From Rhodopirellula sp. (GTDB taxonomy: Bacteria; Planctomycetota; Planctomycetia; Pirellulales; Pirellulaceae), in NCBI GenBank assembly GCA_002714565.1, contig PAXU01000026.1, positions 43,104 through 53,323 on the forward strand: DNA of 10,220 bases, given 5' to 3'. Positions within the stretch are counted from its first letter, which is position 1. Every line of letters starts with the position of its first letter. The position numbers and the translations under genes are program-made. This document shows, piece by piece, positions 1-9,997 of the stretch. A model generated the notes under the pieces. The model was not told the DNA's origin, ran no database searches, and saw only the letters and a list, made by a program, of their open reading frames with translations.

Positions 1-953
1 GCACCTTAAGTTTTTGGAAACTGTTAGCCCTCTTTGTTGTTCTTATAACCGGTTGTGGCGATTCAGACGGTGTAAATTGGCCAGACGAAAATAGTCTCTA
101 TCCTGTCATTGAAAACCCAATCACCACGGAAGTTGTGGATGTTTCTAACTCCATTTTTGACGACGAATTAGTATTAGGCGTTGTTATTGATGGAAAGGCG
201 CGTGCTTATCCAATTAACATGCTGACCGGGCCAACACGAGAGATCATAAATGACGAGCTGAGTGATGTTGCAATCGCTGCGACGTGGTGACACCTCTGTC
301 ATAACGGTATCGTGTATATCCGTGAAATTGATGGAAAGCAGCTGACATTTGCTGTTTCACCTCTCTTGTATAACGAGAGTTTAGTAATGGTAGATTCCGA
401 GACGCATACCTTTTGGAGTCACTTGCTGGGTAAAGCCATGCGCGGCCCATTGGAGGGTCAGGAACTAAAGATGATCAATTCGGTTGTTTGTGATTGGAAG
501 TCATGGAAAGCAGACCATCCTGACACAACGGTGTTGGATATGGTTCCGACAATCGCATCACTTAAGGATGACTATTATGCTGATGCATCAAAATACATTA
601 TTGGCATGACAGCTGAGGGACAATCTCGAGCGTGGCAATTAGACCATCTGAAAAAATCAACAATCATCAACGATGAATTCAATGGTTCGGTAGTCATCGT
701 CCATGATCAGAACGGTTTAGGCACGCAAGTGTTTAGTTCGATGATTGATAGTAAATCACTAACCTTTGTTATCAAAAAAGATCAGATGAGAGACCTGGAG
801 ACCGACAGTACATGGAACATGCGAACCGGTAAAGCTATTGACGGTGCACTAACAGGCCGTTCGCTAAAACCACTGGAGTCAAAAATCTCATTAAAGAAAG
901 CTTGGGATGTTTTCTATCCAGAAAGTAGTTATTGGTTTCCTGTAGAAAACTGA
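1..953 (+). CDS. DUF3179 lipoprotein, probable selenoprotein (5' end outside window)
   Basis: The first complete codon is at base 3, and no start codon precedes the signal peptide, so the gene begins left of the window. The frame is open from base 3 to the TGA at 951-953 except for one TGA at 288-290. Counting from base 3 (316 codons), a hydrophobic stretch ends in the lipobox ITGC (Cys18), so the protein is probably a lipidated, membrane-anchored exported protein. Family hallmarks follow: GKARAYPINML, IINDE, then ATW-U96-HLC99-HNGIVY, LTFAVSPLLYNESLVM, and FWSHLLGKAMRGPLEG. Most DUF3179 proteins have Cys at residue 96 (TWCPLC type), so the TGA replaces precisely a conserved Cys. The C-terminal half (about 195-305) is a degenerate second copy of the same unit, again with IINDE and LTF but no Cys pair. 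The family's biochemical role is not established; a thiol/selenol redox or metal-binding role is inferred. Alternatives are a nonsense mutation or a sequencing error. Confidence 0.85.
288..290 (+). other. In-frame TGA, candidate selenocysteine codon
   Basis: This TGA lies in frame within the DUF3179 gene, giving T-W-(TGA)-H-L-C. It occupies the first Cys position of the family's CxxC motif, and the second Cys (297-299) is kept. UxxC in place of CxxC is the classic pattern of selenoproteins that have Cys homologues. TGA also serves as the normal stop of this same gene (951-953) and of dinB, so the genome does not simply read TGA as an amino acid. Decoding would need selA, selB, selC and selD, none of which is in the window. 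Confidence 0.72.
296..334 (+). promoter_or_regulatory. Putative bacterial SECIS hairpin
   Basis: Hand folding of the RNA after the TGA gives an upper stem of 304-307 (ACGG) with 320-323 (CCGU), continued by 308-310 (UAU) with 316-318 (AUA). U319 is bulged and the apical loop is CGUGU (311-315). In an alternative register U308 bulges on the 5' side, followed by two base pairs (A309-U319, U310-A318) and a loop starting C-G-U. That is close to the layout of the E. coli fdhF element, with a bulged U, two pairs and a loop containing GU. A weaker lower stem may form between 296-301 and 329-334, including G-U pairs. The loop begins 20 bases after the TGA and has G at its second position, as expected for bacterial SECIS elements. 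No energy calculation was made. Confidence 0.5.
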
Positions 954-958
954 ATAAC

Positions 959-2122
959 TCACTGATTCTTCTTGTCTGAAAGTCCTCGATGCAAGGCACT
1001 ATCCCCAAATCGGTTCTTGATTTGATCTGCCACGGAGTCAATCGACTTATTCCTTTTCTGCTCCTCTCGATCAAACATCAATTGCTGAGACTGGCCGGTA
1101 TCATCCAGATTGGAAACACCCATTCCAAGTAGTCGAAGGCAGGTTGGTCTGTCAGGAAGTTTACTAAGTAGTAATTCTTTAGCGAATTGCCAGATGATGT
1201 CCGTCTGATCAGTCGGTTCCGATGCGGTCGCGCTGCGGGTTACCGTTTGGAAGTCATCATAGCGAGCCTTGATGTTAATGGTTCTTGCTTTGAGACCAGC
1301 CCTTCTCAAACGACGGCCGACTTGCTCGGTTTGATCTAAGAGTTTTGCGATAAGCACATCCAGGTCAGCAACATCACTCGCAAAGGTCGTTTCATGCGAA
1401 ATCGACTTTGCTTCTCTATCCGGGATTACATTACGGTTATCAATTCCCTTGGCTAGTCTCCAGATTTGAGCACCAGACTTCCCAAATCTATCGATGAGCA
1501 GTTGCTCGGGTAATTCTCTCAATTGCCGGATGGTACGGACCCGCAGTTTTTCAAACACAGCTAGAGTCGCTTTACCGATCCCCCAAACTCGCTTGATCGG
1601 AAGCGGATCGAGAAACTCCTGAACCGCGTTTTCTTCAACAACACAAAATCCATCAGGCTTATCGACGTCGCTTGCCAGCTTGGCGAGAAACTTATTTGGC
1701 GCTATTCCTACCGATGCAACTAAACCTACTTGCTCTTGTATGTTTTGCTTAATAGATTTGCCAATCTCAGACGCCGATCCAAATAGACGGATGCTTCCAC
1801 TTACATCAATAAAAGCCTCGTCTAATGCTAGTGGTTCTACTAACGGTGAATAGCTGTGAAATACTTCTCGAATGGTTTTTGAAATCTCTCTGTAGTAACC
1901 AATGCGAGGCTTCAAAACGATGGCATGTGGACAGAGTTTAAGTGCGGTTTTGGTTGGCATGGCGCTATGCACTCCGTATTCACGCACGGCATAATTTGCA
2001 GCAGCGACCACTCCTCGCCTGTCGGCTGAGCCACCGACGATAACAGGTTTTCCCTTTAACGACGGTTCATCACGTTCTTCGATTGATGCATAGAAGGCAT
2101 CCATGTCAACGTGCAGGATCAC
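959..2122 (-). CDS. dinB: DNA polymerase IV (Y-family translesion polymerase)
   Basis: The 387-residue protein is a cytoplasmic error-prone polymerase that extends past lesions and stalled forks. The N-terminus HVDMDAFYASIEE supplies the first catalytic Asp (D6) and an aromatic steric-gate residue (Y11). PLALDEAFIDVSG carries the second acidic pair (D101, E102). SVGIAPNKFLAKLASD and the helix-hairpin-helix-like VWGIGKATL (about 179-187) follow as in DinB, then the little-finger domain. QQLMFD (346-351) sits where many DinB proteins carry a QLxLF-type sliding-clamp motif. The length is slightly above that of E. coli Pol IV (351). The start is GTG, preceded by GGGAG seven bases upstream; no better in-frame start was seen. 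It is convergent with the DUF3179 gene, with only five bases between the stop codons. It is isolated in function from its neighbours, and no LexA-like box was recognised in the short upstream region. Confidence 0.96.
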   Translation of the reverse strand: MILHVDMDAFYASIEERDEPSLKGKPVIVGGSADRRGVVAAANYAVREYGVHSAMPTKTALKLCPHAIVLKPRIGYYREISKTIREVFHSYSPLVEPLALDEAFIDVSGSIRLFGSASEIGKSIKQNIQEQVGLVASVGIAPNKFLAKLASDVDKPDGFCVVEENAVQEFLDPLPIKRVWGIGKATLAVFEKLRVRTIRQLRELPEQLLIDRFGKSGAQIWRLAKGIDNRNVIPDREAKSISHETTFASDVADLDVLIAKLLDQTEQVGRRLRRAGLKARTINIKARYDDFQTVTRSATASEPTDQTDIIWQFAKELLLSKLPDRPTCLRLLGMGVSNLDDTGQSQQLMFDREEQKRNKSIDSVADQIKNRFGDSALHRGLSDKKNQ

Positions 2123-2163
2123 AATTGTTCTCCCGGCTCACTCAGTCGTTCTGACTGTATCAA

Positions 2164-2194
2164 AAAAGGACCACTCAAATTGAGTGGTCCTTTT
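2164..2194 (-). terminator. Rho-independent terminator behind the NIPSNAP gene
   Basis: A perfect inverted repeat is centred on base 2179. Its core arms are GGACCACTCAA and TTGAGTGGTCC, flanked by A-runs on the left and T-runs on the right. Read on the minus strand it follows the NIPSNAP stop codon by about 40 bases and ends in a run of six T. On the plus strand it also ends in TTTT, so it could act in both directions. It separates the NIPSNAP transcript from dinB, which therefore probably has its own promoter between here and 2122. Confidence 0.9.
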
Positions 2195-2231
2195 GTTAAT
2201 CGAAGATTCGATTTACTCACTGGATTCCCAA

Positions 2232-2978
2232 CTACTTGATTTGTGAATAGTCTGTTGACTTCATATAGATTGAAATAGGAGGCTTCGCCAAGCGACCGAC
2301 ACCGGATGCGGCAGCGGCCTTTTTCCATTCGGGATCGGCAATAAATGCCTGCCAGGATGCTTTGGCAGCATCGCGGCTTTTGTGGTGAATGATGTAGTAC
2401 AAGTGATCCTTTGAAATCGGTTCATCGGTTGGGTGCCAATAAGCCAGATTTCTCATGCCGTGTTTTTCAAATAACTTTATGGTGTGATCACGGAATCGTG
2501 CATCAAGTTTGCCAAGCTTTCCTTCGGCGGCCTGATAAATACGCAATTCAAAAACGCCATCATCACCTTTGTTCTTCCATCCCTTTTTGGGGGAGTAATC
2601 AGTCGATTCAAGGAAAGTGGCTTCGGGTGCTTTGGATAGCAGCGGCCCGTCTACGCGAGATTTCTTAAATACGTCTTGCCATTCCGGATCTGCTACAAAG
2701 TCCGCCCATGACTTCTTTGCGGCATCGCGACTCTTATGACTAATGACATAAATCAATGTGTTTGGAATGTCTTCGGGCACCCAGTAACCAATGTTCTTCA
2801 TGCCATGGTTTTCAAAGATCCGCATTGTATGATCGCGGAAGCGTGCATTGAGATTCTCTAGTTTTCCTTCGTGCGTTGTATAGACGCGAAGTTCAAGTAC
2901 ATCGGCTGTAGCGTCGTCTGACATGGTGAACCCTGTTAGAAGAAAAGTAGCAAGTAACGTTTTGATGGTGCGTTGCAT
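2232..2978 (-). CDS. Exported protein with two tandem NIPSNAP domains
   Basis: This 248-residue protein starts at the ATG at 2976-2978, chosen because GGAGAG lies seven bases upstream and a signal peptide (RTIKTLLATFLLTGF) follows at once. The frame stays open a further 168 bases upstream, but that part has no family similarity. Two NIPSNAP units follow, at about residues 27-128 and 142-245. They share LELRVY/FELRIY, ARFRDHT, HGM-N-YW, HKSRDAAK-SW-F-ADPEW and a closing STDYS. NIPSNAP domains adopt a ferredoxin-like, dimeric alpha-beta fold; their chemistry is unknown and no catalytic residue can be named. The tandem form could fold as an internal pseudo-dimer. The gene is divergent from a sulfatase gene and shares its upstream region, so co-regulation is possible. 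Confidence 0.9.
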   Translation of the reverse strand: MQRTIKTLLATFLLTGFTMSDDATADVLELRVYTTHEGKLENLNARFRDHTMRIFENHGMKNIGYWVPEDIPNTLIYVISHKSRDAAKKSWADFVADPEWQDVFKKSRVDGPLLSKAPEATFLESTDYSPKKGWKNKGDDGVFELRIYQAAEGKLGKLDARFRDHTIKLFEKHGMRNLAYWHPTDEPISKDHLYYIIHHKSRDAAKASWQAFIADPEWKKAAAASGVGRLAKPPISIYMKSTDYSQIK

Positions 2979-3173
2979 TGAGTGCTCTCCGAGCTGCAAA
3001 TAAATAGAATGACTGATCCTGACGTGAATTATAAACGGAATCCGTATCCTCGTGGTCTCCGTAACAACAAGTGGTTGAAGGGAATTGGTAAAGCTGATAG
3101 CCTCGGTAGAGTTGATTTCATCACGCTGTTGAGAGACGTGAATCAAACCAGCGATCCTTATCCGGAACTCTCA
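2979..3173. promoter_or_regulatory. Divergent promoter region, NIPSNAP gene / sulfatase gene
   Basis: This 195-base spacer separates the two divergent starts. On the minus strand 3028-3033 reads TATAAT, a perfect -10 match about 50 bases before the NIPSNAP start, but no convincing -35 lies at the proper distance. On the plus strand no promoter match is convincing (TTGAAG at 3075-3080 lacks a good -10). No clear operator palindrome was seen. Both strands happen to stay open in one frame through this spacer, but the translated sequence has no recognisable family features. Confidence 0.45.
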
Positions 3174-4769
3174 ATGTTTGACTCTATGTGTCGAAGATTT
3201 ATCGCAATTGCGATTTGCCTGTTTGCCGCTACCACGTCAGTAGCAGCGGCAGAAAAACGGCCCAACGTCGTATTCTTTCTACTGGATGACCTCGGTTGGA
3301 CAGATTTGGGTTGCTATGGCAGCGAGTTTTATGAAACTCCGAATATTGATCAATTGGCCAAAGAGAGCGTACGGTTTACGCAAGCATATGCAACTTGCCA
3401 TGTTTGTTCTCCGACCCGTGCAAGCATTATGACGGGCAAATACCCTGCCAGACTCCACTTAACAGACTGGCTGACCGGCCGACGTAACTACCCGTTTCAA
3501 CAGTTGCTCAATGCGGAAATCCATCAACAACTTCCGCTGGAAGAAATAACTATTGCCGAAGCGCTAAAGTCACACGGCTATAGTACAGCTCATATCGGTA
3601 AATGGCATTTAGGCGAAGAGCCCCACGGTCCGACGGCCCAGGGGTTTGATATCCAGATTCCGAAGTGGAACAAAGGTTGGCCCAAGGTGGGGTACTACGC
3701 ACCGTTTCAGTTAGACGGCCTGAAGGACGGACCTGGTGATTACCTGACCGATCGTTTAACCGACGAAGCGCTCAACTTCATCGAGTCGAATCAAGAGCAA
3801 CCATTTTTCCTGTACATGTCTCATTACGCCGTTCACGATCCCATTCACGGCAGGCCTGACTTGGTGGAGAAATATGAACAAAAGCTTGCAAGACAGAAGC
3901 CAAAGCCCGACCCCGCTTTTATCCTGGAATCTAATCCGGATGATTTGCTCCCGTTATCACGACAGGAATTGAATGAACTCGGATCAACACCGGAATTCGC
4001 AGGATTCAAGATACTTCCAAGACGCACGGTAAAGATCAAGCAGCATCAGGACAACGTCCACTTTGCAGCGATGGTTGAATCCGTTGATCAGAGCTTGGAG
4101 CGCATACGTCAGAAATTGGAGGCATTGGGTATAGATGACAACACGATAATCATCTTGTTTTCTGATAACGGTGGCATGTCGGCAGGTAATTTTGGTAATC
4201 CCAACCGTGTTGTAAGCCCAGCAGCACTCGACAAGGCATTTGCCACATCGAACCTGCCCCTACGTGGTGCAAAAGGCTTTCTATATGAAGGCGGTATTCG
4301 AGAGCCAATGATCGTGCATTGGCCAGGTCGCGGGAAGTCCGGCAGCGTGTGCCGTGTGCCGGTGGTCAGCACGGATTTTTATCCGACGATTCTCGAAATG
4401 GTCGGAGTCGATGTGATGCCAGACCAGCATAAGGATGGTGTCAGCCTTACTGGTTTAATTCAAGGTGACAAACACCTATCACGCGATGCGATCTATTGGC
4501 ACTTTCCGCACTACAGTAATCATGGGATGCAAAGCCCGGGCGGCGCAATTCGAGTCGGAGATTACAAGCTGCTAGATTATTTTGAAAACGGTAGCGTTCA
4601 GTTGTTCAACTTGAAAAAGGACATTGCCGAACAAAAGGACTTGTCCGAAAAACATCCACAACTTGCTTCGCAATTGAAAGCAAAACTCGATGCATGGAGA
4701 GTGGAAGTGAACGCCAACATGATGAAACCAAATCCACAATACGATCCAAACGCACCAATCAAGCGGTAA
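3174..4769 (+). CDS. Exported formylglycine-dependent sulfatase
   Basis: The 531-residue sulfatase hydrolyses sulfate esters, probably on a carbohydrate, outside the cytoplasmic membrane. A signal peptide (RRFIAIAICLFAATTSVAAA) is followed by the metal-binding NVVFFLLDDLGWTDLGCYGS (two Asp at 38-39). The maturation motif CSPTR (Cys78, codon 3405-3407) is the site converted to formylglycine. Further family residues are IGKWHLG (K143, H145), SHYAVHD (H217, H221), FSDNGG (D331, N332) and LRGAKGFLYEGGIREP (K367). The length is typical of type I sulfatases. The start is uncertain: ATG at 3174 has a weak GGA seven bases upstream, while ATG at 3186 gives a cleaner signal peptide. The open frame extends to 2982 but that part is unlikely to be translated. 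The activating enzyme is not in the window. It is followed after 53 bases by an ADP-ribosylglycohydrolase-like gene, probably in one transcript. The substrate cannot be assigned by eye. Confidence 0.95.
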   Translation: MFDSMCRRFIAIAICLFAATTSVAAAEKRPNVVFFLLDDLGWTDLGCYGSEFYETPNIDQLAKESVRFTQAYATCHVCSPTRASIMTGKYPARLHLTDWLTGRRNYPFQQLLNAEIHQQLPLEEITIAEALKSHGYSTAHIGKWHLGEEPHGPTAQGFDIQIPKWNKGWPKVGYYAPFQLDGLKDGPGDYLTDRLTDEALNFIESNQEQPFFLYMSHYAVHDPIHGRPDLVEKYEQKLARQKPKPDPAFILESNPDDLLPLSRQELNELGSTPEFAGFKILPRRTVKIKQHQDNVHFAAMVESVDQSLERIRQKLEALGIDDNTIIILFSDNGGMSAGNFGNPNRVVSPAALDKAFATSNLPLRGAKGFLYEGGIREPMIVHWPGRGKSGSVCRVPVVSTDFYPTILEMVGVDVMPDQHKDGVSLTGLIQGDKHLSRDAIYWHFPHYSNHGMQSPGGAIRVGDYKLLDYFENGSVQLFNLKKDIAEQKDLSEKHPQLASQLKAKLDAWRVEVNANMMKPNPQYDPNAPIKR

Positions 4770-4822
4770 GCCAATTTGGTGATAGCCCACAACGATAAGC
4801 TGCAATCGCAAGAAAGTAGATA

Positions 4823-6169
4823 ATGATGAAAACAGCCAAGCTTCTGATTCTTTTAGCCACTTTCCTCGTGGTCAACGTTTCCGTAAAGGCAATCGAGCCG
4901 GACAAGGGGCTGGAATACCCTGAGTATTCACCGAGCGGTGATGATTTGATTATTTCCCGAAGTGCCTACCATGAAAAACTCAAGGGCTTTTGGCTGGCTG
5001 AGTGTATTGCCAATTGGACTGGCTTACGGACGGAAGGCGTGAAGAAGACGGGACCGTTTTATACAGATGAAGACTGGGGAACCAAACGCGGTAGACGCAA
5101 GGGCAGAAACGGTGAACCACAGATGATTGAATTCGTGCTCGTGCCGGAAGGTGAAGTTTGGGGCGCCGATGATGACACAGATATCGAATATATCTACCAG
5201 AGTATTCTGGATACGAATGACACGAGTGTGGTTTCCGGTGAACATATTCGAGATGGCTGGTTAAAGCACATTAAGCACAAAGAGCAGAATTTCTTATGGG
5301 TATCAAATGAGAAAGCACTACATTTGATGATTGATGGCTTAGTACCGCCGCAGACGAGTATGCCGGAAAATAATGAACACTTTGATCAAATTGATGCGCA
5401 GCTGACCACGGAAATCTTTGGACTATTCGCGCCAACTCGTGCAGACATTGCGCTGAAAATGTCACATATGCCGATTCGTACGACGGCCTACCGCGATGCA
5501 GAATGGATCGCAGAATTCTACGTCATCATGCACGCCTTAGCATCAAGTGTCGATCCGGATATGAGTACGCACGAGCAGGTGATGTGGTTGGCGGAAGAAG
5601 CACGTGGACGGCTCCCAAACGAATCGTTTCCGGCAAAAATGTATGACTTTGTAAAACGAGAGTACGAAAAAAATCCAGATAAAGACAATTGGGAAGCGAC
5701 ACGCGATTATTTGAATTGGCGTCACACCGGTCAGACGATCGATGGGTATAACTACCGCAGTTGGTTCGATGCCGGTATTAACTATGGCGCCAGTTTAATC
5801 AGCTTGTTCTATGGCCAAGGAGATCTAAAACGGACGATTAAAATTGGTTCACTATGCGGATGGGATTCAGATAACCCAACAGCTACGTGGGGTGGTTTAC
5901 TCGGTTTCTTAATCGGTGAGAAAGGTGTGGATGAGGCATTTCCGGACGTGAAGCTCTCAAAGCTATATCGCATCGGCCGCACCCGAGTGAATTTTCCGGA
6001 TCGTACACCCGACCAGCCCGGCGATGATTCATTTGAGTTGATGTCAACACGCGGGATTCACGTAATTGACAGAGTGGTCATCGAAGAAATGGGTGGCGGC
6101 GTGGACTTGGAAAAAGACGTCTGGTACATCCCGCGATCAACCGTCGGTGTTGTGCGTGCCAAGTACTAG
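4823..6169 (+). CDS. Exported ADP-ribosylglycohydrolase-fold protein
   Basis: The 448-residue protein has an N-terminal signal peptide (KLLILLATFLVVNVSVKA). Family signs are AYHEKLKGFWLAECIANW (about 48-65), the acidic metal motif WGADDDTDIEY (113-123) and the second metal motif GWDSDNPTATWGG (346-358). The DDTD and DxDNxxA pair corresponds to the binuclear metal site of the DraG/ARH superfamily, which cleaves N- or O-glycosidic bonds of ADP-ribose in the cytoplasm. Export makes protein de-ADP-ribosylation improbable, because the usual substrates are intracellular. A glycosidase-like role on extracellular sugar is an inference from its place between a sulfatase and a GH32-like gene. Two adjacent ATG codons (4823, 4826) compete as start; only a weak purine stretch (AAGAAAG) precedes them. 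The length exceeds that of simple ARH proteins (about 300-360), with insertions between the two metal motifs. Confidence 0.86.
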   Translation: MMKTAKLLILLATFLVVNVSVKAIEPDKGLEYPEYSPSGDDLIISRSAYHEKLKGFWLAECIANWTGLRTEGVKKTGPFYTDEDWGTKRGRRKGRNGEPQMIEFVLVPEGEVWGADDDTDIEYIYQSILDTNDTSVVSGEHIRDGWLKHIKHKEQNFLWVSNEKALHLMIDGLVPPQTSMPENNEHFDQIDAQLTTEIFGLFAPTRADIALKMSHMPIRTTAYRDAEWIAEFYVIMHALASSVDPDMSTHEQVMWLAEEARGRLPNESFPAKMYDFVKREYEKNPDKDNWEATRDYLNWRHTGQTIDGYNYRSWFDAGINYGASLISLFYGQGDLKRTIKIGSLCGWDSDNPTATWGGLLGFLIGEKGVDEAFPDVKLSKLYRIGRTRVNFPDRTPDQPGDDSFELMSTRGIHVIDRVVIEEMGGGVDLEKDVWYIPRSTVGVVRAKY

Positions 6170-6326
6170 TCAAGAAATAGTGGTGTACGATTTGCGGATT
6201 GCCCAAGTGCAGGGAAGGTCAGCCAAAGCAATGGCTCCAATCACATATACGGATTGCTATAAGTAATAATATTACTATTACAAAGTCAGTTGTAAGTTAT
6301 GAATTTTCCACAACAGTGAGTGTCAC
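6170..6326. promoter_or_regulatory. Spacer before the GH32-like gene with AT-rich inverted repeat
   Basis: This 157-base gap is the longest within the plus-strand trio. It holds a perfect inverted repeat AGTAAT-AAT-ATTACT at 6262-6276, overlapping the -10-like TATAAG at 6258-6263, which may be an operator or promoter element for the GH32-like gene. The octamer CGGATTGC occurs twice (6195-6202 and 6250-6257). No terminator with a T-run follows the upstream gene, so read-through from it remains possible. No convincing -35 was found. Confidence 0.3.
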
Positions 6327-7919
6327 ATGATGCGACGGATATCCCTTCTAGTTTTGGCTCTTACTTTTTCGTTTACCTTTGGTGCATTAAGTCATGCTCA
6401 AGACAGCACGCAAGGATTGATTGAAGCAACTCGCAGGTTGCGAACCAAGTATCTGAACGACCGTTATCGACCTACGTGGCACTTTCTGGGGTCAGAAGGT
6501 GTTTGTTTCCCATTTGATCCTCAAGGTTGCATTTACTGGAAAGGGAAATACCACGTTTTTTATGCTATTCAGGACAAAGGAAAAGGAGCCTGGGGTCACG
6601 CGTCGAGTATCGACCTTGTTCATTGGGTGCATCATCCGATTCCACTAACGGTTAACGCGGGCGATCCGGAAGAGCATGTTTTTGCAGGGGGGTCGCTCAT
6701 CAGTCTCGATGGTAAGCCAACGATGATTTACCACGGAGTCAATTCGGGGACGTGTATTGCACAGAGTCTAGACGATGACCTCATTCGATGGCAAAAATCC
6801 TCTAGAAATCCGGTCATTCAGTTACCGAAGGCGGGAGAACCTAATTATGGAAAATACCATGTGTGGGATACCTGTGGGTGGGTTAAGGACGGTGTGTATT
6901 ACTCCATCAGTGGAGATCATCCTAATCATGCACCTCCCACAGACGGAGATATTGCCTACCTATTCCGATCAAAAGACCTGGTGAAGTGGGAGTATATGCA
7001 TCCGTTTTACAAATCGAAACGTGAATGGACACCAGATGACGAAGATTGTTCCTGCCCAGACTTTTTCAAGTTAGGTGATAAGCATGTGTTGATGTTTATC
7101 AGTCATACGCAAGGGACTCAATACTATATTGGCCGATATGAAGACGATCGGTTTTTTCCGGAAAGTCACGGCAAGATGAACTGGGCGGGTGGCCCTGTAT
7201 TTGCCAACGATAGCCTTGTTGATGATAAAGGGCGTCGCATCATGTGGGCTTGGGCATGTGAATCGTGGGAACGCGATACTCAACTTTCAGCTGGTTGGTC
7301 GGGTGTTATGACAATGCCTCGCGTCCTTTCCATGTCAAAAGAAGGCACGATGCTGATTAATCCTGCAGAGGAGCTGCAGCAATTGCGCATGAATCCAGTA
7401 GTTAAGGATAAGTTTACACTCCCAGCAGGGGATGCCATTTCAGTCAACGAGGTTGAAGGTGATTCACTGGAACTGGAAGTTAATGTGGATATGGCTAGTG
7501 CCAGTCAGTTCTCAATTTTGGTGCGGTGTTCTCCGGACGGATCTGAAGAAACGGTGATTACATATGACAAGAACGCCGGTGTTATCCGAATAGACACTAC
7601 TAAATCTAGTCTGCGAGATGACATATTTCAGCCATTTCCTTATCCGCAAGCGGCCTATTTTCCAAAGCAAGTGCGGCAGTCAAAGGATGTTCGAATCCAA
7701 GAGGCTCCATTTGAAGTGAAGCCCGCAGAAGTCTTAACGCTACGTGTGTTTCTGGATCGCTCGATTCTTGAAGTGTTTGCCAATGGTCGTCAGTGTGTGA
7801 CTCAGCGGATTTATCCATCACGCAAGGATAGTAAACGGATTAAGGTGATGAGTGCCGGAGGTGATGTGACGGTCCAGTCTATTCGCGCCTGGGACATGGC
7901 ACGAGCAAATGCTTTTTAG
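6327..7919 (+). CDS. Exported GH32-like glycoside hydrolase with altered active-site motifs
   Basis: The 530-residue protein begins with a signal peptide (RRISLLVLALTFSFTFGALSHAQ) and then shows a GH32-type five-bladed propeller pattern. FDPQGCIYWKGKYHVFY (63-79) corresponds to the WMNDPNG block and keeps the nucleophile Asp (D64). WGHASSIDLVHW (89-100) is typical. VWDTCGW (179-185) stands for the RDP block and keeps Asp181 but not the Arg. SCPDFFKLGDKHVL (242-255) stands for the ECPD block, but the acid/base Glu is Ser242. The C-terminal beta-sandwich is clear (LRVFLDRSILEVFANG). GH32 enzymes usually cleave sucrose or fructans; here specificity, and even activity, is open because of the substitution. 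D238, E239 or D240 just before it could compensate. Two ATG codons (6327, 6330) compete as start, with weak ribosome binding (AGTGAG). It is convergent with a sugar kinase gene. Confidence 0.9.
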   Translation: MMRRISLLVLALTFSFTFGALSHAQDSTQGLIEATRRLRTKYLNDRYRPTWHFLGSEGVCFPFDPQGCIYWKGKYHVFYAIQDKGKGAWGHASSIDLVHWVHHPIPLTVNAGDPEEHVFAGGSLISLDGKPTMIYHGVNSGTCIAQSLDDDLIRWQKSSRNPVIQLPKAGEPNYGKYHVWDTCGWVKDGVYYSISGDHPNHAPPTDGDIAYLFRSKDLVKWEYMHPFYKSKREWTPDDEDCSCPDFFKLGDKHVLMFISHTQGTQYYIGRYEDDRFFPESHGKMNWAGGPVFANDSLVDDKGRRIMWAWACESWERDTQLSAGWSGVMTMPRVLSMSKEGTMLINPAEELQQLRMNPVVKDKFTLPAGDAISVNEVEGDSLELEVNVDMASASQFSILVRCSPDGSEETVITYDKNAGVIRIDTTKSSLRDDIFQPFPYPQAAYFPKQVRQSKDVRIQEAPFEVKPAEVLTLRVFLDRSILEVFANGRQCVTQRIYPSRKDSKRIKVMSAGGDVTVQSIRAWDMARANAF

Positions 7920-7966
7920 ACAGCGCATTGCACGATAAAGATCACAGTGCCAGACTCGAGATTAAA

Positions 7967-8917
7967 TCAGATTTGGGACATTTGTAGTGTTTCTTCGTAG
8001 GTCTTTATACCGGCGATTGCACCAACTTGGGTAACACAGCATGCGCCAGTTGCAGAGGCGAGTCCCGCAGCAGCGTTAAGATCAAGGCCGTTGCATAACC
8101 CGGTAATGAGCCCCGCGTAGAAGCTATCTCCTGCACCCGTTGTGTCGACTACCCTTCCAGGTGGCGTGACTGGTGCTACATCGAGCCAATGATTCGCATC
8201 AGCACTCAATAAAGCTCCTTTATCCCCAAGCTTGATCCCAAGTAGGGCATTGGGTGCGAAGTTTCGGTAGGCGGAAATCATTTCTTTCGGGTCTGTATAT
8301 CCGGTTTGAGAGAGTCCTTCTGAATAACTGGGAATGTAGAAATCCAAATAGGGCAGGCAGCGATCCAGTGGCTGAAGGTTTCCACCGCCACCGGCCGTAT
8401 CGAGTGCCGTTTTGCATCCGGTTTCCTGAACCTGCTTTAGCACTTCCGGCAGGTCATCTTCCATGTTGGGCATGAGATGGTAGTATCCGAACAATGCGTA
8501 TTGAGTTCGTTCAAACAAATCGAGGTGATCCAGTGCCGTGTTCTTGTCGAAACAACGTGATGCACCCGAATGATAGATGAACGAATGCTCGGCATCATCA
8601 CCGACTATCACAGCAGTTGCACTGGTAGCTTCTTGTGGATGAACCAGAACATAACTGGTGTCGAGCCCACCATTTTCAAACGCTGCCTTTACCAAGTCTG
8701 ACCACGGGTCATCGCCAACGTAACCGAACGCTCCGACTCGCAGTCCCAGCCGGGCCATGACCAAACCGCTGTTGGAGACGATTCCACCCACGCCTGGGCA
8801 GATCGGATCGATGCGAACCGTTTCCATTTGTTCCAGTGGCAGACGACGATCCACGGTGCGCATTGGTAGATCGACGCATATTTCGCCACAAACCATGCAA
8901 TCGAATCGATCACTCAT
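7967..8917 (-). CDS. PfkB-family carbohydrate kinase
   Basis: This 316-residue cytoplasmic kinase transfers phosphate from ATP to a sugar or sugar-like alcohol. The N-terminal glycine-rich block PGVGGIVSNSGLVMARLGLRV with AFGYVGDD (about 41-70) and the C-terminal signature VVDTTGAGDSFYAGLITGL (256-274) identify the ribokinase/PfkB family; D264 in GAGD is the catalytic base. ALDTAGG and IPSYSE (171-200) occupy the usual central positions. The length is normal for the family. The substrate is undetermined: a fructokinase-like role would fit the GH32-like neighbour, and a ketose-phosphate kinase would fit the divergent aldolase-like gene. The ATG start is preceded by a weak GGTAG seven bases upstream. 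The stop lies 47 bases from that of the convergent GH32-like gene, with no clear terminator between them. Confidence 0.93.
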   Translation of the reverse strand: MSDRFDCMVCGEICVDLPMRTVDRRLPLEQMETVRIDPICPGVGGIVSNSGLVMARLGLRVGAFGYVGDDPWSDLVKAAFENGGLDTSYVLVHPQEATSATAVIVGDDAEHSFIYHSGASRCFDKNTALDHLDLFERTQYALFGYYHLMPNMEDDLPEVLKQVQETGCKTALDTAGGGGNLQPLDRCLPYLDFYIPSYSEGLSQTGYTDPKEMISAYRNFAPNALLGIKLGDKGALLSADANHWLDVAPVTPPGRVVDTTGAGDSFYAGLITGLCNGLDLNAAAGLASATGACCVTQVGAIAGIKTYEETLQMSQI

Positions 8918-8989
8918 TTCGAAACTACCAAAAGCTGATAATATGTTGGAAACGTATGTTGTAAACCTTCATGAGGAATAAATCGACCG
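8918..8989. promoter_or_regulatory. Divergent promoter spacer, kinase / aldolase-like gene
   Basis: Only 72 bases separate the divergent starts, so promoters and any operator must overlap or lie close together. GATAAT at 8937-8942 is a plausible -10 for the plus-strand gene, about 50 bases before its start, but the -35 is poor. The palindrome TTTCGAAA (8917-8924) overlaps the kinase start. GAGGA at 8973-8977 may be the ribosome binding site of the plus-strand gene, although its 12-base spacing is long. Confidence 0.3.
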
Positions 8990-9997
8990 ATGGAAAAGTC
9001 ACTGGACACGAAAATTAAACGAATTCGCGAAGACTCGTCTGTTAAGGACTTTATTCTGGCCGATGCCAAAGACGGCGATATGGGATTTGGAATCTCTTGT
9101 CCCGGACCAAATAAAGGTGATACGAAAGAGCGATTTCCGTTTGATACGCTGGAAAGCTATCGGCAATCCATGCGGGAAATCACGGAGCAGGGTCTGGTTG
9201 ACATCATGCTCATGAGTGCCAGTGTCAGTGAGCAACTCACGATTAACGAGCGTATTTTCGAAAATTCTACCGTGACGCCTGCTGTACGAGCCAATGACAC
9301 TACAGATATCTGGCTTGGATTGAGTGCAAACTATACATCTCAGCCATCACAGCCTTTCCGCTCCGCAACAATTGACCATATTCAGAGTGGCAAGGTCGAT
9401 TGTACAGATGAAGAACGTACGCTTGGGTCTGATTTAGGATTGTATTCGGTTACGTTTAATCACGATTCCACATTGGATAGGGAGTCGTTGCAACATTATG
9501 GAGAGTTTCGGCTGGAAGCGGAACGCAAGAACTTCCGCCATTTTCTTGAGGTCTTTGCTCCAAATGCACCCGTTCGAGAAATTGACGACGTGCCGAGATT
9601 TGTCAACGATCATATAGCGCGATGTTTAGGCGGAGTTACCAGTAGTGCCCGTCCTTTATTTCTCAAAATGCCGTACTTCGGCCCGGCGGCAATGGAACAA
9701 CTGGTCGAATATGACCCTAATTTGATTCCAGGCATCCTCGGTGGTTCCTCAGGGACAACACATGATGCATTTCGAATGTTATGGGAAGCTAAAAAATACG
9801 GTGCTCGCGCAGCGTTATTTGGACGGAAGATCAACTTTGCTGAAAACCAGTTGATGTTCATACGTATGTTGAGAGCTATCGCTGACGATGAAATTGAGCC
9901 GGAAGAAGCAGTACGAGATTATCACGGTCAATTGCAATCAGCCGGCATCGCACCGCATAGAAGCTTGGATGACGATTTACAACTGACGCAGCTTTAG
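8990..9997 (+). CDS. Putative TIM-barrel class I aldolase-like protein
   Basis: This 335-residue protein has no signal peptide and is probably cytoplasmic. Features suggest a DeoC/LacD-type beta/alpha barrel: ILADAKDGDMGFG (22-34), LVDIMLMSASVSEQL (69-83), PLFLKMPYFGP (222-232), IPGILGGSSGTTHDAF (246-261) and ARAALFGRKINFAENQL (272-288). The barrel layout makes Lys226 in LFLKMPY the candidate Schiff-base residue, with the Gly-rich GGSSG and GRKIN segments as a phosphate site. This family assignment rests on pattern only; the annotation could equally be an uncharacterised barrel protein. The divergent PfkB kinase suggests a kinase/aldolase pair that phosphorylates and then cleaves a sugar, as in the tagatose, inositol and sulfoquinovose routes. 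The ATG at 8990 is the first start in the frame after the GAGGA at 8973. Confidence 0.7.
   Translation: MEKSLDTKIKRIREDSSVKDFILADAKDGDMGFGISCPGPNKGDTKERFPFDTLESYRQSMREITEQGLVDIMLMSASVSEQLTINERIFENSTVTPAVRANDTTDIWLGLSANYTSQPSQPFRSATIDHIQSGKVDCTDEERTLGSDLGLYSVTFNHDSTLDRESLQHYGEFRLEAERKNFRHFLEVFAPNAPVREIDDVPRFVNDHIARCLGGVTSSARPLFLKMPYFGPAAMEQLVEYDPNLIPGILGGSSGTTHDAFRMLWEAKKYGARAALFGRKINFAENQLMFIRMLRAIADDEIEPEEAVRDYHGQLQSAGIAPHRSLDDDLQLTQL

Follow-up and report, generated by a model that had tools for sequence, protein, structure and literature searches.

The stretch analysed here (the window) is 10,220 nt in length and represents positions 43,104–53,323 of contig PAXU01000026.1 from a Rhodopirellula sp. 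genome (GCA_002714565.1). Its left end carries a DUF3179 gene with an in-frame TGA at positions 288–290. This codon is the sole interruption of a frame that runs from base 3 to a stop TGA at 951–953. The start is an ATG at position -3, just outside the window, and the second codon contains an N. The read-through product matches PF11376 (DUF3179) with 194.9 bits (E 2.7e-57), where the Pfam gathering cut-off is 27 bits; none of the NCBIfam models matched it. Standard gene calling yields only a 213 aa open reading frame (ORF) from the GTG at 312, and truncated forms of such proteins are present in protein databases (P0002, P0003). An earlier reading, made from the letters of the window without database searches (the sequence-only reading), had described both the single TGA in an otherwise open DUF3179 frame and the truncated ORF, and both descriptions hold. 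Comparison with related sequences indicates that the UGA is very probably decoded as selenocysteine (Sec). The features of the locus are collected in Table 1.

Table 1. Features of the DUF3179 locus in window coordinates
Feature	Positions	Strand	Basis
DUF3179 selenoprotein gene (probable)	1..953	+	ATG 3 bases upstream of window, natural stop TGA 951–953
Lipobox-like ITGC, possible lipid-attachment Cys 54–56	45..56	+	by eye from sequence
Repeat 1, Rieske-like domain (predicted)	156..560	+	residues 52–186; structural match 63–168
Region of raised RNA stability in TGA loci, -3 to +36 relative to UGA	285..323	+	folding of relatives
In-frame TGA, probably read as selenocysteine (U96)	288..290	+	frame translation and conserved column in relatives
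U-H-L-C motif (UxxC), counterpart of CxxC in Cys homologues	288..299	+	translation, alignment
Putative SECIS core stem-loop GGUAU-CGUGU-AUAUC, five pairs	306..320	+	comparison of TGA and Cys loci
Repeat 2, Rieske-like domain (predicted), Asp replacing Sec	582..944	+	residues 194–314; structural match 204–298

The TGA lies in a conserved column. Cys is found at column 96 in 78 of 80 alignment rows, as the sequence-only reading had anticipated, and Ser in the other two; the 78 include seven TGA rows counted as Cys. The flanks on both sides of the codon are conserved in nine orthologues, eight of which have TGA and one TGC. A search of named genomes gave 78 loci, 77 with a readable motif (L163 has none), and the codon at the Sec column is TGA in 74, TGC in two and TGT in one. 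The patterns used omit the Sec codon, but they derive from an alignment in which nine of ten rows are Sec. Homologues with TGA in this column, which the earlier reading had proposed to look for, were found. By record title, 23 of the TGA loci belong to Verrucomicrobiota and three to Poribacteria, the phylum of some genera being presumed; there are a few near-identical loci among them.

In the order to which the source organism belongs, DUF3179 is present in 27 of 146 genomes, and 10 of these have the motif TGA, in 11 genes altogether. A twelfth TGA row (G144:C14:123255) was discarded, being a truncated duplicate whose TGA lies outside the motif. Around it (L076, G144:C14:121000-130500), some 5 kb are duplicated in tandem with near identity, and the duplication includes the truncated DUF3179 copy. 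In the phylum, at least 131 of 392 genomes match the protein of C38, a second TGA-bearing DUF3179 locus of the source genome; counts from this search are lower bounds. Among the matches listed, all 64 TGA-bearing rows, the window gene included, have the TGA at the Sec column, and the first-repeat matches (19,118 residues) contain no other in-frame TGA. The position of the TGA is not due to chance. One second-repeat match (L247) has a TGA near its end, and TGAs are present 219–228 codons downstream in four of the 77 named-genome loci, at the place of the window gene's natural stop. First and second repeats were separated by their order in the frame, which may have put a few single rows into the wrong class. 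The locus sets for order, named genomes and phylum overlap, and some records recur under other handles (L157 and L219, for example); L273, which duplicates L165, was left out. Values read by eye are the number of genomes with SelA (45 of 146), the 52 TGA genomes and 79 others compared below, and the phylum labels from record titles.

A sequencing or assembly error, with TGC or TGT as the true codon, is hardly conceivable. The source is a metagenome-assembled genome (MAG) with N bases in places, and TGA is one base removed from either Cys codon. However, the same TGA is present in a separate record with 97% DNA identity to the window gene (L086) and in dozens of others.

The mRNA downstream of the codon has properties of a selenocysteine insertion sequence (SECIS). 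Folding stability was scored against synonymous-codon shuffles; three of 137 TGA loci were excluded from the stem analyses on account of short flanks or N bases. The sharpest stability excess is at -3 to +36 of the UGA, with a mean z of -1.38 in TGA loci (n = 134) compared with -0.03 in Cys loci (n = 35). The core stem pairs +18 to +22 with +28 to +32. All five pairs are formed in 110 of 134 TGA loci, but in only one of 35 Cys loci. Paired cells amount to 90.6% in TGA loci and fall to 22.8–55.4% when one side is slid by 1–3 bases. There is also covariation between the first base of an Ile/Val codon and the third base of a Tyr codon. Wherever both codons are present in TGA loci (110 loci), it is without exception (73 A-T and 37 G-C), although not demanded by the protein. 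No link between the two bases is seen in the 13 Cys loci with these codons; among all 134 TGA loci this base pair fails in 10. The pattern persists after clustering below 70% identity (14 and 14) and below 55% (6 and 7). These clustered figures are the safer counts, as the locus sets overlap and there are 30 near-identical pair lines in the 87-locus set used for gene neighbourhoods.

The stem also bears on whether the TGA is a nonsense mutation in a decaying gene, which is very improbable. Decay would account for a lone in-frame stop, and omega relative to the nearest relative is 0.53 after the TGA and 0.29 before it, values that come from only 18 and 10 changes. Against it, the same codon at the same column recurs across Planctomycetota, Verrucomicrobiota and Poribacteria, the flanks are conserved, first-repeat matches have no second in-frame TGA, and both formation and covariation of the RNA stem are confined to TGA loci.

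Six DUF3179 matches, spread over five loci, are found in the source genome (4.54 Mb, 89% complete, 7% contaminated). At two loci, namely the window gene (TWUHLC) and C38 (CSYUSSE), the motif contains an in-frame TGA. Genes for the Sec machinery, selA, selB and tRNA-Sec, are all found on contig C44. The tRNA-Sec model exceeds its cut-off in five of 14 control genomes and the selB model in two of 14, and therefore the ARAGORN anticodon call for the tRNA-Sec is of importance. Across the order, strong SelA matches (E <= 1e-80) are present in nine of 10 TGA genomes compared with 36 of 136 others (p 1e-4). In the phylum, selB is found in 49 of 52 TGA genomes and in 186 of 340 others; within the 131 genomes matching the C38 protein, 49 of 52 with TGA and 44 of the 79 others have it. 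Of the order's 27 genomes with DUF3179, 16 have selD above cut-off. Separately, the SelD genes of five relatives themselves have an in-frame TGA (L067–L071, in G026, G041, G060, G027 and G129).

The frame would also stay open if this organism had reassigned UGA to Trp or some other standard amino acid. Such a reassignment has next to no likelihood: the window gene itself terminates at a TGA, the in-frame TGAs of first-repeat matches are confined to a column where homologues have Cys, and selA, selB and tRNA-Sec are present. Decoding as Sec would proceed by SelB with Sec-tRNA reading the UGA at 288–290, with insertion directed by the stem-loop at 306–320.

Several results weigh against Sec decoding or limit it. 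The selD gene was not found in the source genome, which is 89% complete; the best match has 51.6 bits against a cut-off of 125, and this lone sub-threshold match looks like ThiL from its sequence. Searches of G526, a close relative, and of the SelA-bearing genome G050 likewise gave no selD above cut-off. The MAG is also partly contaminated, and the window and C44 could stem from different cells. Within the 27 DUF3179-bearing genomes the link to SelA is weak (9 of 10 versus 9 of 17, p 0.09), and machinery is absent from some TGA genomes (selB in three of 52 in the phylum, SelA in one of 10 in the order). The window's own 285–335 segment does not fold better than shuffled sequence (z -0.06), and folding of 51-nt blocks, unlike the 39-nt profile, did not separate the groups (mean z -0.63 for TGA and -0.48 for Cys loci). 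At least one of the five pairs is missing in 24 of 134 TGA loci. Bacterial SECIS loops have a G near the 5' side. The loop starts with G in 127 of 134 TGA loci, but equally often in Cys loci (34 of 35), and this base is therefore no test of SECIS. No conserved gene neighbourhood was found in 12 loci or in 87 partly overlapping loci beyond lineage synteny, which consists of a DinB gene at seven loci and a phosphatase-like gene at nine. The sequence-only reading had named three outcomes that would speak against it: a genome with no Sec machinery, reads with TGC or TGT at the codon, and random stops or frameshifts in close relatives. None of these was encountered; of the machinery, selA, selB and tRNA-Sec were found and selD was not. 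Its proposal of Sec decoding is strongly supported by machinery, column and SECIS covariation; export of the product is probable, and the redox or metal chemistry that it suggested is a conjecture.

The product would be exported and anchored by lipid, as predicted. By eye, the ITGC motif resembles a lipobox; the N-termini of orthologues differ from one another. The protein is a duplication, and structure prediction suggests two Rieske-like beta domains that lack iron-sulfur ligands. The Rieske assignment comes from structural matches of the predicted fold. In Foldseek the top rows by E-value are unrelated folds, and the Rieske rows are lower, with probabilities up to 0.98 and E above 0.1; the VIA comparison covers the entries of this Foldseek list. 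Sequence profiles show no similarity to Rieske proteins by hhalign, a Pfam scan of 80 members gave no Rieske match, and a PDB sequence search gave no match and no solved relative. Rieske clusters are held by a CxH...CxxH pattern. This is absent here: the repeats contain only U96, C99 and C163, none within a CxH. In the model the reactive site would be confined to the first repeat, with the Sec at a strand end, usually accompanied by a Cys at +3.

The likeliest function, held with modest confidence, is a selenol/thiol redox site in the cell envelope, where the Sec may form a selenenyl-sulfide with the +3 Cys. This Cys is retained (UxxC) in 49 of 62 Sec genes. It is absent from the other 13, and this runs counter to a plain selenenyl-sulfide mechanism; forms without it include UxxA, UxxE and UxxV. 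Sec as a metal or metalloid ligand and not a redox catalyst is ranked second and is rather unlikely. The partner-less genes would fit such a role, as would the occurrence of His (5), Ser (7) and Asn (3) at the column in 113 first-repeat rows. However, most Sec genes keep UxxC, Ser and Asn are ill suited to bind soft metals, and Sec is best known from redox sites. An inverted CxxU motif was considered for the C38 gene and dropped, since a Cys at -3 is present in only one of 63 Sec genes.

A broader reading, put forward tentatively, combines these observations. Sec-type DUF3179 proteins would be widespread in Planctomycetota and neighbouring phyla, and their Sec, often without a resolving Cys, may work by itself or bind a metal or metalloid rather than form the standard UxxC redox pair. 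Taken jointly and just as tentatively, this reading includes the ligand-free Rieske fold and the exchange of Sec with Cys, His, Ser or Asn. A tree of 136 Sec and 35 Cys rows, poorly resolved, gives 14 inferred Sec/Cys changes compared with 28–35 when labels are shuffled. A tandem array of four DUF3179 genes is present at L226 (G309:C23:156000-161500); three have TGA at the Sec column and one has Gly.

Beyond this gene the window encodes at 959–9997, by Pfam, a DinB-type polymerase (- strand), a NIPSNAP protein (-), a sulfatase, an ADP-ribosylglycohydrolase, a GH32 protein and a PfkB kinase (-); no Pfam match was obtained for 8990–9997. As nothing is conserved beyond lineage synteny, the neighbourhood was rejected as a clue to function.

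The sequence-only reading had proposed a new selenoprotein family. This is not the case; DUF3179 is already known as one and has been on published lists since 2007. The selenoprotein tables of PMC9312934 (2022) and PMC13188914 (2026) include DUF3179/PF11376 with the motif UxxC/T, both citing Zhang and Gladyshev 2007. The word stem planctomycet- is absent from the main texts of these two papers. Selenoproteins have been reported in planctomycete genomes, with the candidates listed in a supplement (PMC4807772), and a literature search on selenoproteins in Planctomycetes with metagenome terms gave nothing further. One public Planctomycetota protein (P0050) is already named "DUF3179 domain-containing (seleno)protein". 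The spread across Planctomycetota with Verrucomicrobiota and Poribacteria, the variants without UxxC and the predicted fold were not met in the literature searched, nor was a function for DUF3179 in the few papers located. The locus holds a probable selenoprotein that gene callers in routine use cut short. A test set is at hand in the 136 Sec and 35 Cys rows, the tandem array and the partner-less Sec forms, together with the conserved column, the covarying SECIS stem and the predicted fold.

Comparison with known proteins places the window protein as follows. It differs from Rieske ferredoxins and NirD (4p1b, 1vm9, 3c0d) in the absence of CxH...CxxH, in its duplication and in the lack of hhalign similarity. 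Cys-containing DUF3179 proteins, e.g., P0004 (TWCHLCHNGIVY) and the TYCPLC paralogues, have the same architecture and column, but Cys replaces Sec and the five-pair stem is almost confined to the Sec forms. The listed DUF3179 selenoprotein, for which the 2007 work on the Olavius algarvensis delta symbiont is cited, shares PF11376 and UxxC with the window protein. Unlike it, the protein described here is from a planctomycete and belongs to a TWUHLC sub-family, with UxxA, UxxE and UxxV relatives and two Sec paralogues in one genome.
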